Shown: positions 19,253 through 30,006 of the stretch, piece by piece
Layout of the letters: each line of letters begins with the position of its first letter
How positions within the stretch are numbered: the first letter of the stretch is position 1
From: Caldilineaceae bacterium
GTDB lineage: Bacteria > Chloroflexota > Anaerolineae > Caldilineales > Caldilineaceae
NCBI GenBank assembly: GCA_022827195.1
Contig: JAJDTL010000008.1
Coordinates: 1-47,713, forward strand
Direction of reading: 5' to 3'
DNA length: 47,713 nt
Program-made: the position numbers and the translations under genes
Notes under the pieces: model-generated
What the model was told of the DNA's origin: nothing
Database searches by the model: none
The model's input: only the letters and a program-made list of their open reading frames with translations

Positions 19253-20458
19253 ATGCCCCAAGCCCTCTCACACATCACGGTTCTCGACATTTCACGCGTC
19301 CTCGCCGGCCCGTACGCCACGATGACACTCGGCGATTTCGGCGCAGAGATCATCAAGGTCGAGCAACCCGGCCGCGGCGACGACTCCCGCCATTGGGGCC
19401 CACCCTTCACCGCTGGCGGCCAGAGCGCCTACTTTCTTTGCGCCAACCGCAACAAGCGCAGCCTCACCCTCAACCTGAAGACACAAGCCGGCCGGACCAT
19501 TTTCCGACAACTGGCCGCGCAGGCCGACGTGGTGGTCGAAAACTTCAAGGCCGGGGGCATGGAGCGGCTCGGCCTGGGCTGCGAAAGCCTGCGGGCCGAC
19601 AATCCCGGTCTCATCTACTGCGCCATTACCGGCTACGGGCAGAGCGGCCCCGACCACGCTCTCCCCGGCTACGATACCGTGATCCAGGCGCAGGGCGGGA
19701 TCATGAGCGTCACAGGCCCCACGGCGTCGGGCACCGACGGCGAACCCTACAAAGTGGGCGTCGCCATCGCCGACATCACCGCCGGCCTGCACGCGGCCGT
19801 GGCCATTCTCAGCGCACTCCAGCATCGCGCGCGCACCGGCGAGGGCCAGCAGATCGACATTGCGCTCTACGACACACAGTTGAGTTGGCTCGCCAACGTC
19901 GCCAGCAGCTACCTGCTGTCCGGCGAACCGCCCCTTCGCTACGGCAACGCGCACGGTACGGTCGTGCCCTATCAGACATTTGCCACCGCCGACGGCCACC
20001 TGATGCTGGCCGTCGGCAACGACAACCAGTTTGCCGCCCTGGCGCAAGCGATCGGCGAACTTTCCTGGTCCGACGACCCAAGATTCGCCACCAATCCCTC
20101 CCGCGTACAACATCGCGATGCGCTCATTACCGCCCTCTCCTCCCACTTCCGCACACGCACAACGAGCGAGTGGATCGAACGGCTGCGCGCCGCCGGCGTA
20201 CCCTGCGGCCCGGTCAACGACATTCCCACCGCGCTCGATTCGCCGCAAGCCCAACACCGCCAAGTGGTGCAACATGTCACAGACGGCTACGGCGACAACA
20301 TCCCCCAGATCGCACCAGTGCCAAAGCTGGACAGGTCGCCGCCCCGGATCCACCGGCCGCCGCCCCTACTGGGGGAACATACCGATGAGGTCCTGCGGGA
20401 AAAACTTGGGCTGACGCCAGAGAAGATAGATTCACTGCGCGAGAGCGGCGTGATCTGA
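19253..20458 (+). CDS. CaiB/BaiF family (class III) CoA-transferase
   Basis: This 401-residue enzyme moves CoA between carboxylic acids through an aspartyl-CoA thioester intermediate, the family that includes formyl-CoA:oxalate CoA-transferase, CaiB and BaiF. Diagnostic segments are LDISRVLAGPYATMTLGDFG, AEIIKVEQPGRGDDSR, NRNKRSLTLNLKTQAG, VVVENFKAGGMERLG and AITGYGQSGP. The predicted nucleophile is Asp174 in VGVAIADITAG, and QIDIALYDTQLSWL follows. The C-terminal part has GVPCGPVNDI. Length is normal for the family. The substrate pair is unknown. It starts about 50 bases after the second Uma2 gene; a functional link is unlikely. Confidence 0.93.
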   Translation: MPQALSHITVLDISRVLAGPYATMTLGDFGAEIIKVEQPGRGDDSRHWGPPFTAGGQSAYFLCANRNKRSLTLNLKTQAGRTIFRQLAAQADVVVENFKAGGMERLGLGCESLRADNPGLIYCAITGYGQSGPDHALPGYDTVIQAQGGIMSVTGPTASGTDGEPYKVGVAIADITAGLHAAVAILSALQHRARTGEGQQIDIALYDTQLSWLANVASSYLLSGEPPLRYGNAHGTVVPYQTFATADGHLMLAVGNDNQFAALAQAIGELSWSDDPRFATNPSRVQHRDALITALSSHFRTRTTSEWIERLRAAGVPCGPVNDIPTALDSPQAQHRQVVQHVTDGYGDNIPQIAPVPKLDRSPPRIHRPPPLLGEHTDEVLREKLGLTPEKIDSLRESGVI

Positions 20459-20508
20459 TACCCCGAGTGTGATCTCCGCCGCGTATCAGCTGGAATTCTC
20501 AGGCCGCT

Positions 20509-20537
20509 TTGTCATGTGCGCGCGCCTGGGCTATACT
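20509..20537 (+). promoter_or_regulatory. Sigma70-type promoter of the DUF898 gene
   Basis: TTGTCA (20509-20514) and TATACT (20532-20537) are separated by 17 bases, close to consensus, and lie about 65 bases before the ATG at 20604. This suggests separate transcription from the CoA-transferase upstream. Confidence 0.6.
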
Positions 20538-20603
20538 CAGATCATAGCCAAGACGCTTCCCATAAAGAACGATAGTTGTCGCCCCAAACGGAAGGATTCC
20601 GCC

Positions 20604-21785
20604 ATGCCAACCAATCTGGAGTTTCGTGGTCGCTGGCCGAATATCTACGGAAACCTGATCCTGATCTCGTTCCTCACGACCATCACTGCCGGCATCTACG
20701 TCCCCTGGGGCTACGCGCGCTGGCAACGGCTCATCACCGAGAGCACCTACTTCGAGGACAAACAACTGGAGTTCGACGGCTCCGGCGCCGAGGTCTTCGT
20801 GCAGTTCGTCATCATTGGATTCTTCACCCTCATAACGCTCGGTCTGTACATCATTCTCGGCTTCTCCTCGACCAGAATGCTGCGCTGGCAATACGATCAC
20901 ACACTCCTGCCCAATGGCCAACGCATGGACTATCACGGCCAGGCAGTTGACATCTTCTGGGAATGGCTGCTTCTCGTCCTCTTGACGCCACTTACGCTGG
21001 GCCTCTACTACTATTGGGGCCGCAACCGTTTGCGACGCCTCGTGCTGACCAACGTCTCACTGGACGACCAGCAGATACAGGTCGAAGGTAGCGCCGGTGA
21101 ATATGTCGTCGCCGTGCTGAGCAACTGGATCATGACGGTGACCGCAGTCGCCGCCTATGCAGCTCTGGGCTTTCTCCTGTGGGATCGCCTCGTGGCCAAC
21201 ATTCCCTGGGCCGGACTGTTGGAGCTACTCCAAAGCGGCTCCCTCGCGGCCTGGACCGACCTCCTGTTGACTGTATTCGCGCTGGGAATCTATGCTTTGC
21301 TGGGGCTGGCCCTGTTGGGCCTGGCTACCGTCCGCTTCCGCGCCTGGGAGGCCGATCGGACACTGGCGCCCATGCCAGTGCGTTCACAGACGCCGGTCTC
21401 CGTGATTCCGACACCTGCCAGCGCGATCGCCCGACCGCCTGCGCCCGACCCAGACATGGCTGAAAGCGTTCCCGCACCGCCTGCGGCGCCCGCAGCGGAC
21501 GATTTAACCTTCCGAACTGCAGACAGAGGCTACGAGTTCGATGCCCAACCACCGCCGCAGCCGCGCAGGCCCCCGCCCCAAAGTGATGACGAATACTATA
21601 ACTTCGCAGACTATTCCACGCTGGCGGGGCAGGAACCGGAAAGCTACAGCGGCGATGAAAGAAGTGACTGGAGCAGCGAGCAGTGGGCGCGCCCGCTGAA
21701 TACAACGCAGGCTGAAGGAGAAGAAGGATCGGAGGACCGGCAGGTTCAGCGTACCGACGACGAAGACGCAAGCGTGATTTCTTAG
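20604..21785 (+). CDS. DUF898 (YjgN-like) integral membrane protein with disordered tail
   Basis: This protein of about 393 residues resembles the DUF898/YjgN family of uncharacterised inner-membrane proteins. The first ~270 residues contain about six hydrophobic segments, with the repeated family pattern LEFRGRWPNIYGN, FLTTITAGIYVPWGYARWQR, LITLGLYIILGFSSTRMLRW and LTLGLYYYWGRNRLRRLVL. The last ~120 residues are rich in Pro, Asp, Glu and Ser (PPPQPRRPPPQSDDEYYNF), with no obvious domain, and are probably cytoplasmic and disordered. The ATG at 20604 has GGAAGGA upstream. It is the last gene before convergent selD, 23 bases apart. The function is unknown. Confidence 0.75.
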   Translation: MPTNLEFRGRWPNIYGNLILISFLTTITAGIYVPWGYARWQRLITESTYFEDKQLEFDGSGAEVFVQFVIIGFFTLITLGLYIILGFSSTRMLRWQYDHTLLPNGQRMDYHGQAVDIFWEWLLLVLLTPLTLGLYYYWGRNRLRRLVLTNVSLDDQQIQVEGSAGEYVVAVLSNWIMTVTAVAAYAALGFLLWDRLVANIPWAGLLELLQSGSLAAWTDLLLTVFALGIYALLGLALLGLATVRFRAWEADRTLAPMPVRSQTPVSVIPTPASAIARPPAPDPDMAESVPAPPAAPAADDLTFRTADRGYEFDAQPPPQPRRPPPQSDDEYYNFADYSTLAGQEPESYSGDERSDWSSEQWARPLNTTQAEGEEGSEDRQVQRTDDEDASVIS

Positions 21786-21808
21786 AATCCGCGCCAAAAC
21801 ACGGGCGT

Positions 21809-22924
21809 TCAAAGGATTTCGATGACCGGCTCGTCCTCCTGTGCAGGTACAACCTGGCCGATTTCCCAGAAGGGCTGCTCTTCCTCCTCACAGACTGCGC
21901 GAAACGTATCGATTGCTGACGCCGGCACTGCCAGCAACAGACCCCCGCTCGTCTCGGCCTCCCACAACAGCGTCCTCCGCGCCGCGGAAACGTCGTCCTT
22001 CACCGCGACATTTGAGCCAAAATGCTCCGGATTGCGGATGCTGCCCCGCGTGAGGTAACCGGCCCCTATATAGTCGAACGCTCCGGGCAAGGCAGGGACG
22101 CGCGCCGCCTTGATCTGCAGCCGCACCCGCGCATCTGCCGAGGACGCCGCAGCCATTTCGACAGCATGCCCCAGCAATCCGTAGCCCGTAATGTCTGTCC
22201 CGCTCCGCACTTCTGCGGCCCGTGCCGCCTTGGCCGCAGCCCGGTTCAGTCGCGTCATCGACGCGATCGCGCCATCCAGATGCGCAGGGTCGAGGTCCGG
22301 CTTTCCCTGGGCCTGCCGCGCCTGCGGGTCTTCGGATGACCCGGTCAACTTGGCTGCCGTCGTGATGATACCGGTGCCGAGCGCCTTCGTCAGCACCAGA
22401 CAATCGCCCGCGGCCGCCCGTCCCTTGCGGATCAGCGAATCGGGCGCGGCCATTCCCGTGACGCTCAGGCCGTAAAAAGGCTCAGGATTCGTCACCGTAT
22501 GGCCGCCCGCAATGGCTGCGTCCGCCTCCCGCACCTTGGCCGCGCCGCCGGCCAGGATCTCGACGATGACCTCGGCCGGCAGGTCTTCGGGAAATCCCGC
22601 GATGTTCAGACAGACGCGCACCTCTCCTCCCATCGCATAGACGTCGCTCATCGAGTTGGCCGCGGCAATCGCCCCGTACAACCAGGGATCGTCAACAATC
22701 GGCGTGAAAAAGTCGGTTGTCTGGATCAGGACCCGCTCATCATCCAGACGGTAGACAGCCGCGTCGTCCGGTCTGCCCAGGCCGATAATCAGATCGGGGT
22801 ATTCGTCCTGTGGAAAGTCCTCTGCCAGCTGTCGCACGACCTGCGACAACGCCCCCGGTGGGAGCTTGGAGGCTCAACCGGCGCAGGCAACGCGCGCGGT
22901 CAAAGGCACGGTCGCTACTGTCAT
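21809..22924 (-). CDS. selD: Selenide, water dikinase (selenophosphate synthetase) with selenocysteine at residue 17
   Basis: SelD makes selenophosphate from selenide and ATP, the selenium donor for selenocysteine and selenouridine synthesis. ATG 22924, behind AGGAGAAGG, opens a frame whose codon 17 is TGA (22876-22874). The context A-G-U-A-S-K-L-P-P-G aligns with the catalytic motif GCGCK of SelD, so the UGA sits exactly at the active-site Cys17/Sec17 position and Lys20 is kept. After it come DLIIGLGRPDDAAVYRLDDE, IQTTDFFTPIVDDPWLYG, AAANSMSDVYAMGG, AIAGGHTVTNPEPFYG and SGTDITGYGLLGHAVEMA. Total length is 371 residues. Without UGA decoding a caller would start at the internal TTG 22849 and lose the active site. 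The Cys at 14 and the unusual Ala18-Ser19 are notable. Confidence 0.93.
22847..22868 (-). promoter_or_regulatory. Candidate bacterial SECIS hairpin in selD
   Basis: Starting five bases after the UGA on the minus strand, CAAGCTCCC can pair with GGGGGC-(G)-TTG around a short ACC loop: nine pairs including one G-U, with one bulged G. Position and stability suit a SelB-binding SECIS element. An alternative pairing (GCCTCC with GGGGGC) exists, and the minimal loop lacks the G often seen there, so the fold is tentative. Confidence 0.4.
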
Positions 22925-22961
22925 CTCACCTTCTCCTCTGTTGAATCGCATCTCCGCAGTA

Positions 22962-22970
22962 ATTTTATCA
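22962..22970 (-). promoter_or_regulatory. Extended -10 promoter element of selD
   Basis: On the minus strand, TGATAAAAT ends 37 bases before the selD ATG. It fits TGnTATAAT-type extended -10 elements. No convincing -35 box is present. Confidence 0.35.
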
Positions 22971-23298
22971 CAGCCCGGCACAGAGCAGTGGATACCCGGC
23001 AAGGTCCCGCACCTGTGCAATTTTCACGATGTGCGGCCGACGGAATCCCGGATGGTCGCAAATGGCAGGCAAATCATCCAGCGAAAGGGCCGAATCATTA
23101 TGCACTTTGCCTAGTGAATCGCGCCGGGAATTCGACTATAGTGGCCTCAAGTGGCAGAAAGCGGGCGTCGAGTGGGGTCGACGCTGCAAGCGCTTTTGCC
23201 ATGACCATTCTCCTTCCTCCCTCCGCTGGGAGCCTCGGTATAGTGCGTCTCACTTGCCGGGGCTCTCCCCTCCATTCGCGAATGCATTTCAGCAGCGC
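22971..23298. other. Intergenic stretch without recognisable gene
   Basis: About 330 bases lie between the selD promoter and the hsp20 terminator. A 72-codon minus-strand frame (23098-23316) runs into the terminator hairpin and resembles nothing known. I see no tRNA-like or riboswitch-like fold and no good coding signal. Confidence 0.35.
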
Positions 23299-23333
23299 AA
23301 AAAGACTCCGGCCCAACTTCCTGGGCCGGAGTC
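23299..23333 (-). terminator. Rho-independent terminator of hsp20
   Basis: GACTCCGGCCC (23304-23314) pairs perfectly with GGGCCGGAGTC (23323-23333) around an 8-base loop, an 11-bp stem. On the minus strand it is followed by five T (23299-23303). It lies 40 bases after the hsp20 stop. Confidence 0.85.
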
Positions 23334-23373
23334 TGTGCAGAGGATTGTGTAGCCGCTGCAGACCGGAGAAGAT

Positions 23374-23847
23374 CTAGGCTTCGGTCTCCATTTCCCCCGC
23401 GACCTGCACTGCAATGCGTCGTGGCTTTACCTCATCAGCCTTCGGCAGCGTCAGGGTGAGGACACCGTCCTCGTAGGCGGCGCCGATGCTGTCGGCGTTG
23501 ACCGCCGCCGGCAGCGTGATGCTGCGCATGTACCTGCCGAAGTGGCGCTCGCGCACATGCCACTTTGCGCTCTCGTCCACTTCCTGCGCCTGCGTCTCGC
23601 CCTGAATCGTCAGCGTGTTTTCCGAGAAGCTGATGTCGAGCTCGTCCGGCTCGATTCCGGGCATCGAGGCCGTCACACTGTAACCGTTGTCGTCCTCGTA
23701 CACATCCAGCGCCAGCCTCCTGAATCCCCCTTCTCCGTTGCCGGGCCAGCCGTTCGGCTCGCGCAGGAAATCCCCGACAAGCTGGTCCATCTGATTGCGA
23801 ACCGAAACCATCTCACGGAATGGGTCCCATCGCACCAGTCTGCTCAT
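23374..23847 (-). CDS. Hsp20/alpha-crystallin small heat-shock protein
   Basis: Small heat-shock proteins form oligomers that hold unfolding proteins in a refoldable state. The 157-residue protein starts at ATG 23847 (MSRLVRWDPFREMVSVRNQM, the usual N-terminus), directly behind AGGAGGA; the TTG at 23862 is part of that binding site. The alpha-crystallin domain (about residues 45-150) includes LDVYEDDNGYSVTASMPGIE, ISFSENTLTIQGE, RERHFGRYMRSITLPAAVNA and YEDGVLTLTLPKAD. The C-terminal I-x-V anchor appears as RRIAVQVAG. I found no CIRCE element upstream. It is a single-gene unit with a strong terminator and diverges from dnaE. Confidence 0.95.
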   Translation of the reverse strand: MSRLVRWDPFREMVSVRNQMDQLVGDFLREPNGWPGNGEGGFRRLALDVYEDDNGYSVTASMPGIEPDELDISFSENTLTIQGETQAQEVDESAKWHVRERHFGRYMRSITLPAAVNADSIGAAYEDGVLTLTLPKADEVKPRRIAVQVAGEMETEA

Positions 23848-24071
23848 TTTGTTCCTCCTCAACTTTTGCTATGCGCCGCCTTCTCGTGAGAGGAGCGCAG
23901 CGAATTCTTAACCATCCTGTGCAGTAGTCTGTGTGGCTGCCCTCTCGCCACATGCACTGACAATTCTAGCGCTTGCACGTTAGACTGGGGTCAGCGAAAA
24001 GTTAGAGGAATATATGCGTCCAATCGAAGATAAATTCGGTCCGGCTCTATGTATACTACGCGGGAAAGGCT

Positions 24072-24101
24072 TTGTTTGGCACGGCAGTTCTGATGTATGA
24101 T
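24072..24101 (+). promoter_or_regulatory. Possible sigma70 promoter of dnaE
   Basis: TTGTTT (24072-24077) and TATGAT (24096-24101) are 18 bases apart and 70 bases upstream of the dnaE start. The remaining part of the 323-base divergent gap (23848-24170) shows no gene; the hsp20 promoter must be in it, but I could not fix its boxes. Confidence 0.4.
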
Positions 24102-24170
24102 TGAGCGTAAACACGATTGCTGGCGCGGCCTTCGGTCTCGCCTTCCCACGTGTGATATTCCGGCCCTCAA

Positions 24171-28286
<4,116 letters not shown>

Positions 28287-28338
28287 CAAAGAGCCTACAT
28301 CTTTGTTAGCAGGACCTAGAAGACGAGGGAACAACGAT

Positions 28339-30006
28339 TTGACATTGGCAAAAATCGATCCAAGAGGCGAACGGCTAAACACGCTGATTCATAACATATC
28401 ACAGGGTGACATAAAGATTCCGGCTTTTCAACGCGGTTTCGTGTGGTCACAGGAGCAAGTACTCGCGCTCATCGATAGTATTTACAGAGATTATCCGATA
28501 GGAAGCATATTGCTTTGGAATTCGAAAGAGCGTCTAAAGTCTACGCGAAATCTGGGCGGTCTCTTAATTCCTGAGCGAGATCCAGACTACCCCGTCAACT
28601 ACGTTTTGGATGGGCAACAACGTCTGACTACGATTTATGGGGTTTTTTGCTCGGACAAACAGCTGGACGAAAGAGCTGAAGGAAACGCACAGGATCCAAG
28701 CATGTTTGAGTTATATTTCGACCTCGGCGAAGAGAGGTTTTTGTCAAAGGCGGATTTGGAGGAAATGGAAGCTCCTCCCACTCTTTGGTCAAATGTGCGT
28801 CCGGGCAGTTTCAAGCTGTCGACCTTATTTGACCCCAGCGAGTTTCATCGACATCTCCAACGATGTGAGGAAAAGCATTATGACTTGATTACTTCGCTAC
28901 AGAATAAATTTCAGAACTACGAAGTACCTGTCGTAACAGTAAAGGAGCGCAGTAAGGAGGAAGTCGGAACCATTTTTGAGAGAATAAACAACACAGCTAC
29001 TAATTTGTCCACCCTAGACCTGATGATAGCTTGGACTTGGGGAGATGACTTTGATCTCAGAGATGAAATAAGACAAATCCTCACTGATCTTGACGAGAAA
29101 GGATTTGGCGGTATTCCGGAAAAGCGCATACTGCAATGTCTTTCCGCAATCATTTGCAAAACTACATCAACGAAAGCAATTCTTGATTTAGATGTCATTA
29201 GTGTTCGAAACAATATTGATAAGCTCCGCACGAGTTTGGAACAAGCTGTCGACTATCTCTCAACCGAGTTTCTGGTCCAGACTTCCGATTTCTTGCCTCA
29301 TTCGCATCAACTGGTTCCTTTGACATTCCTCTTCTCAAGGGGCGGCATTTCGTCAACCGGCTTGAATGACGCCATCAGACATTGGTTCTGGACGACCTCT
29401 TTCTCCAAGAGGTATGCTGGGTCGACCGATTCTCATATGGACGAAGACATTAGCCTATTCTCAGAAATGTTAGATCGTCCTGCAAGGGTTTCGGCAATAA
29501 CTAGGTATTCACATAGGATCTCAAGAACTGACCTGATCGAAAGGGAATTCAGTATTGCCCGTCCCTTTACAAGAGCATTTCTTCTCCTTCTTGCCCAGAA
29601 GCGACCGAAAAGCCTCCTTACTGGAAAGTATATCGACATAGGGAGATCTTTGTCGTCTTACAATCGAAAAGAATATCATCACATCTTCCCAAAGGATTAC
29701 TTGCGAAAGAAGGGGAAGGGGAAAATCAATTCACTCTGCAACTTCTGTTTTTTGCCTGCGAGCACAAATAAGAGGATCACCAGTCATCCTCCATCTAAGT
29801 ATCTCTATGACTTCCAACTGGAAATGTTCGACCATGCAACAAGCGACCAACAGAGGAAGGCTTCGCTTGAGGCAATTCTAGAGTCAAACTTGATGCCGGT
29901 TGACGATGACATATATTTGCACGATCATTACAGTAGATTTCTAGAGGATAGAGCAACAGTTGTCTTGAAATTCTTGGAATCTCAATTGTTCATTGAAGAA
30001 GACTAG
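28339..30006 (+). CDS. DUF262/DUF1524 (GmrSD-like) defence-type protein
   Basis: The N-terminal DUF262 domain shows IKIPAFQRGFVWSQEQVLAL, IDSIYRDYPIGSILLWN and the hallmark VLDGQQRLTTIYG (near residue 90), implicated in nucleotide binding in GmrS-type proteins. The C-terminal part (about 440-500) has a DUF1524/HNH-like motif, YNRKEYHHIFPKDYL followed by NSLCNFCFLPASTNKRI. Related proteins act as modification-dependent (type IV) restriction enzymes or phosphorothioate-sensing SspE. I take TTG 28339 (MTLAKIDPRGERL) behind GAGGGAA; TTG 28303 is an alternative. The protein is about 555 residues. The gene is clearly AT-richer than dnaE and rhaA on either side, with different codon use, so it looks horizontally acquired. 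No methylase or other defence partner is next to it. Confidence 0.85.
   Translation: MTLAKIDPRGERLNTLIHNISQGDIKIPAFQRGFVWSQEQVLALIDSIYRDYPIGSILLWNSKERLKSTRNLGGLLIPERDPDYPVNYVLDGQQRLTTIYGVFCSDKQLDERAEGNAQDPSMFELYFDLGEERFLSKADLEEMEAPPTLWSNVRPGSFKLSTLFDPSEFHRHLQRCEEKHYDLITSLQNKFQNYEVPVVTVKERSKEEVGTIFERINNTATNLSTLDLMIAWTWGDDFDLRDEIRQILTDLDEKGFGGIPEKRILQCLSAIICKTTSTKAILDLDVISVRNNIDKLRTSLEQAVDYLSTEFLVQTSDFLPHSHQLVPLTFLFSRGGISSTGLNDAIRHWFWTTSFSKRYAGSTDSHMDEDISLFSEMLDRPARVSAITRYSHRISRTDLIEREFSIARPFTRAFLLLLAQKRPKSLLTGKYIDIGRSLSSYNRKEYHHIFPKDYLRKKGKGKINSLCNFCFLPASTNKRITSHPPSKYLYDFQLEMFDHATSDQQRKASLEAILESNLMPVDDDIYLHDHYSRFLEDRATVVLKFLESQLFIEED

Follow-up and report, generated by a model that had tools for sequence, protein, structure and literature searches.

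Selenophosphate synthetase (selenide, water dikinase; SelD) that itself contains selenocysteine (Sec) is a standard bacterial selenoprotein, as passages of three papers describe it (PMC13188914, PMC1794560, PMC4561486), and the gene analysed here resembles them in three ways: a Sec is predicted at the catalytic position, which belongs to the N-terminal selenium-binding loop; a putative bacterial SECIS element (bSECIS) lies just 3' of the UGA; and the genome contains selA, selB and tRNA-Sec. A bSECIS of Sec-containing SelD is reported in one of these passages (PMC4561486), and three selenoprotein families are counted for the Chloroflexi in another (PMC1794560). An earlier note on this DNA, made from the letters of the sequence, implied that a Sec-containing SelD would come as a surprise; this is not borne out, as a UGA-encoded SelD is an expected arrangement, known in other bacteria. 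Among the literature titles found for Caldilineaceae with selenocysteine and for Chloroflexota with selenoprotein, none concerns a Sec-containing SelD in this group.

Here I describe a selD gene of a likely member of the Caldilineaceae (Chloroflexota) whose codon 17 is an in-frame UGA. I predict, with a probability of roughly 0.96, that this UGA is read as selenocysteine and supplies the catalytic residue of selenophosphate synthetase. The gene lies on the minus strand of the window, by which I mean the whole analysed stretch of 47,713 nucleotides, at positions 21809..22924, and has 371 codons if UGA17 is read as the predicted Sec. It starts with the ATG at 22924-22922, is interrupted by a single TGA (22876-22874, codon 17), continues with the AAG codon of Lys20 in the active-site motif (22865..22867, minus strand), and is otherwise intact up to its terminal TGA (21809..21811, minus strand), which is read as stop. 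The first possible start past the UGA is a TTG at codon 26 (22847..22849, minus strand), which is located inside the stem of the predicted SECIS hairpin. On re-reading, the start, TGA, codon number, lysine and TTG positions given in the earlier note were all exact, and a sequence resembling the binding site that it placed before the ATG is present, an AGGAG at 22933..22937 on the minus strand, 8 nt upstream. By eye, AGGA is found near this position in 13 of 16 close relatives and GGAG in 2 more, while the remaining one, L032, has neither.

The protein, with Sec at position 17, scores 338.2 bits against TIGR00476, the NCBIfam SelD equivalog (cut-off 125), and 305.9 against the SelD model NF002098 (cut-off 299); with 199.8 it stays below the cut-off of 291 of a third SelD model, NF010705. 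It contains the AIRS and AIRS_C domains and matches the solved SelD structures PDB 3u0o and 2yye, and these relatives settle its fold as that of SelD. The match to 3u0o, which I take to be an E. coli-type SelD, extends over residues 6-370 (E 3.9e-59), shares Lys20 and puts the TGA opposite Cys17, in agreement with the earlier claim that the TGA occupies the Cys/Sec position of SelD. TGA17 and Lys20 thus provide the Cys/Sec at 17 and the Lys at 20 by which a SelD is recognised, the Sec being predicted from the TGA. The active-site motif was correctly given as AGUASK, but the motif that it replaces is AGCGCK by this alignment rather than GCGCK. Unlike 3u0o, which has Cys at 17 and 19, the window protein has a predicted Sec17 and a Ser19, the motifs differing by C to U, G to A at 18 and C to S. 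In E. coli SelD, Cys17 is essential and Cys19 is not, and the replacement of Cys19 of the E. coli motif by Ser in the window is a feature of the lineage that does not make this a new kind of SelD. The second structure, 2yye, presumably the SelD of Aquifex aeolicus, aligns over residues 7-360; its SGCAAK is close to AGUASK, and both lack the second Cys, although its deposited chain has a Cys, natural or engineered, at the Sec position.

The window gene is the sole match above the SelD cut-off in its genome, with two others below. Its neighbours, scanned from 19253 to 30006 of the window, include a CoA-transferase of family III, a DUF898 protein, Hsp20, DNA polymerase III alpha and a protein with a GmrSD restriction endonuclease N-terminal domain; a selenium gene was not found among them.

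Codon 17 was read in 110 selD loci, the window (L106) included. These loci came from a protein search of named genomes, of which the best 80 of 465 relatives were retained, and from a phylum search of 400 genomes, in which 344 genomes had matches, some of these weak and short of SelD level, and the loci of the best 30, among them the window's own, were kept. The codon is TGA in 107 of the 110 loci (77/80 from named genomes, 30/30 from the phylum search) and TGC in the other three (L077, L088 and L105). The nearest named relative, at 91% identity, is the SelD of a Caldilineaceae MAG (L026), and the organism is assigned to this family on that ground. Among the TGA loci, residues 18 and 20 are invariably A and K (107 of 107 each), and residue 19 is S in 79, G in 18 and A in 10. 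The in-frame UGA is thus aligned with the Cys or Sec of SelD homologues, as the alignment proposed in the earlier note was meant to establish, and conserved in relatives, as is expected of a selenoprotein gene. Lower among the listed matches of the phylum search, I counted by hand 13 that have no internal stop, and Cys or other forms therefore presumably exist elsewhere in the phylum.

The hairpin model given in a passage of PMC13188914 has an apical loop of 3-9 nt, a stem of 4-16 bp, G in the first two loop positions, a distance of 16-37 nt from the UGA and a minimum free energy (MFE) of at most -7.5 kcal/mol. Within these bounds, a hairpin is predicted on the minus strand at 22828..22850 (GUUGUCGCAGGUCGUGCGACAGC), with a stem of 9 bp, a 5-nt apical loop GGUCG (22841-22837) and -13.1 kcal/mol, and it occurs in the MFE structure. 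Its stem begins at the 24th and its loop at the 33rd nucleotide past the UGA, which leaves 32 nt between UGA and loop. Compared with shuffled sequences it has a z of -1.88, with 6 of 200 shuffles equally good. When the window was resampled 1000 times with synonymous codons, 52 of the resamples were as stable with a compliant hairpin, and because 139 of the 1000 conform to the model, the window hairpin on its own is weak evidence. A search of 22750-23000 against Rfam gave no match, and the hairpin was therefore tested against codon-aware controls.

For this test I used six base pairs, +27/+43 to +32/+38, with 200 synonymous-codon resamplings as control. All six pairs are formed in 80 of the 107 TGA loci, whereas resampling yields 4.6 on average and 11 at most, and when the partner is slid by 1 to 3 nt, this holds for at most 2 loci. 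The composition of pair +28/+42 varies (GC 32, TA 25, AT 11, GT 10, TG 10, CG 2 and 17 non-pairs, n=107), and the loop starts with GGT in 88 of the 107. The bSECIS constraints are satisfied in 85/107 TGA loci, whereas 20 resamplings gave 17.05 on average (range 13-23). A simple compliant hairpin is absent from the other 22 in a test that spans 57 nt and allows no bulges; L085, L103 and L122, for instance, lack a compliant hairpin and form no more than 1 or 2 of the six pairs, and must therefore use a structure invisible to the test. The TGC loci L077, L088 and L105 retain 4, 4 and 3 of these pairs, and two of the three have a compliant hairpin in another register. The hairpin region is represented by 92 distinct sequences among the 107 TGA loci, and as related sequences are not independent, these counts overstate the number of events. 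Across the relatives, the evidence for the predicted hairpin is nevertheless much stronger than in the window alone.

The earlier note held that an in-frame UGA in selD implies a full Sec-decoding apparatus elsewhere in the genome, and a search of the whole genome (G000; 5.2 Mb in 54 contigs, 96.96% complete, 5.32% contamination) did find tRNA-Sec, SelA and SelB, the set that goes with a bacterial selenoprotein gene. The tRNA-Sec (C22:148179-148273) scores 67.6 bits against a cut-off of 47 and has the anticodon UCA according to ARAGORN; ten other matches to the model are all weaker and below the cut-off. SelA (C2:141754-142944, L011; 547.7 bits, cut-off 267.9) and SelB (C2:78543-80450; 308.2 bits, cut-off 242.25) match in frames without internal stops. 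selA and selB share contig C2, and tRNA-Sec is located on C22. The Sec genes of this genome as a whole are scattered over contigs C2, C9, C12, C17, C22 and C28, a spread that, together with the fragmentation and contamination of the assembly, weighs against the predicted reading. In 30 genomes reached through chosen loci, SelA was above the cut-off in 29, including all 27 whose SelD has TGA; the exception is G416, which carries the TGC gene L077, and SelA was found in both other TGC genomes. As a side observation, the three TGC loci, with a partly broken hairpin and with SelA in two of the three genomes, would fit a conversion of Sec to Cys. In G000, and in 15 of the 16 Caldilineaceae genomes nearest to it that were searched, SelA itself matches its family in two pieces, with roughly 20-40 extra residues inserted near model position 245; in G000 this insertion lies just before the segment VIDDLGSG.

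From these observations I infer that Sec is incorporated at UGA17. By analogy with the pathway known from bacteria, SelB together with Sec-tRNA-Sec would bind the hairpin and deliver Sec at this codon, the full-length SelD would make selenophosphate out of selenide and ATP, and SelA would use the selenophosphate for Sec synthesis on tRNA-Sec. As a selenoprotein within the selenophosphate pathway, SelD would therefore depend for its synthesis on the very compound that it makes. This circularity could be taken further: with SelD production tied to selenophosphate, UGA17 might act as a selenium-sensing switch, with full-length SelD dropping sharply at low selenophosphate, and the SelD of Chloroflexota might work with a lone selenol. 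In place of the second classical Cys, the 107 TGA loci without exception have Ser, Gly or Ala, which would suit such an enzyme, but I consider this combined proposal improbable.

Alternatively, translation may begin past the UGA, at the TTG at 22849 or at a GTG at codon 30, with the upstream part untranslated and SelD shorter. Mechanical ORF calling indeed picks the TTG at 22849, and database relatives speak for a later start as well. Of 7999 candidate proteins scored, 4063 matched at E up to 1e-60, and among the best 120 of these 4063, placed by their alignment offset to the 371-residue protein, 119 begin past the UGA, at residue 26 or beyond (6 at residue 26, 92 at 30, 18 at 33 and 3 at 45-46). 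Their annotations therefore drop the active site of SelD, which bears out the earlier expectation that conventional annotation would lose 25 codons and the active site here. However, a later start would forfeit the Cys/Sec site together with Lys20, a lysine in every TGA locus, and there are genes that read straight through this part with a Cys: the three TGC loci and P0039, a natural Cys17 relative (ARAGCASK, 66% identical), which is the only one among the best 120 of 4063 that starts at residue 1.

The codons upstream of the UGA argue against a later start as well. In codons 2-16 of the window and 16 relatives (L026-L041), the third positions are variable in 12 of 15 codons, the first positions in 3 and the second positions in 3, whereas in the 39 nt 5' of the ATG of the same 17 sequences the counts for the three positions are 13, 11 and 13 of 13. 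Pairwise codon differences within codons 2-16 amount to 578 synonymous and 286 non-synonymous ones, counted over pairs that are not independent. Judged by this pattern of change, the 15 codons that precede UGA17 evolve as coding sequence, and a coding signature is present on either side of the UGA. I therefore regard a start beyond the UGA as the sole beginning of SelD as very unlikely and the TTG at 22849 as likely a false annotation start, though a second, shorter SelD product could be made from the later start in addition to the full-length one.

The idea that TGA17 stems from a sequencing error or a nonsense mutation, with selD a pseudogene, has nothing in its favour except the stop itself. 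It is refuted by conservation: outside the window, the same TGA occurs in 106 of 109 loci, which come from separate assemblies, and the rest of the selD frame is intact.

The predicted Sec in SelD would not be the only one in this organism. Three further genes with an in-frame TGA likely encode selenoproteins, as judged from their frames and motifs. FdhA (C9:18415-20418) has one in-frame TGA, in CSRAUHAPTVAGL, followed 3' by a hairpin with a GGUCU loop, and its frame terminates in TGA. A SelW-like protein of the Rdx family (C17:73340-73546, L144; 88 codons) has the motif CVQU, and as its TGA is at codon 14, its start is likely to be overlooked by gene callers. An AhpC-TSA-like protein (C28:54583-54906, L149) has the TGA in WTYGUYNC, and this frame is one of nine matches to the AhpC-TSA family in the genome. 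By eye, the latter protein has a lipoprotein-like N-terminus. Only four families were searched (SelD, FdhA, Rdx and AhpC-TSA), and the count of four is therefore a minimum. SelD would supply selenium to these three proteins, in which the in-frame TGA is found at redox-motif positions. Although UGA interrupts selD and these three otherwise open frames, a genome-wide use of UGA as a sense codon, as in code table 4 or 25, can be dismissed, as it is refuted by the terminal TGAs of selD and FdhA, the former showing that the code is not globally reassigned, and as the frames of SelA and SelB lack internal stops and the internal TGAs that were found are at redox-site positions.

Selenouridine synthase was not found in the search of the genome, which fits the absence of the selenouridine trait from the Chloroflexi sequenced at the time of the two papers that mention it in passages on this trait (PMC1794560, PMC5322559). 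As the SelD proteins in the databases lack the active site in 119 of the best 120 of 4063 relatives, selenium use in these uncultured bacteria is easily misread. For the organism itself, these observations point to a Sec-decoding bacterium in which no selenouridine synthase was detected and in which SelD, too, is predicted to be a selenoprotein.
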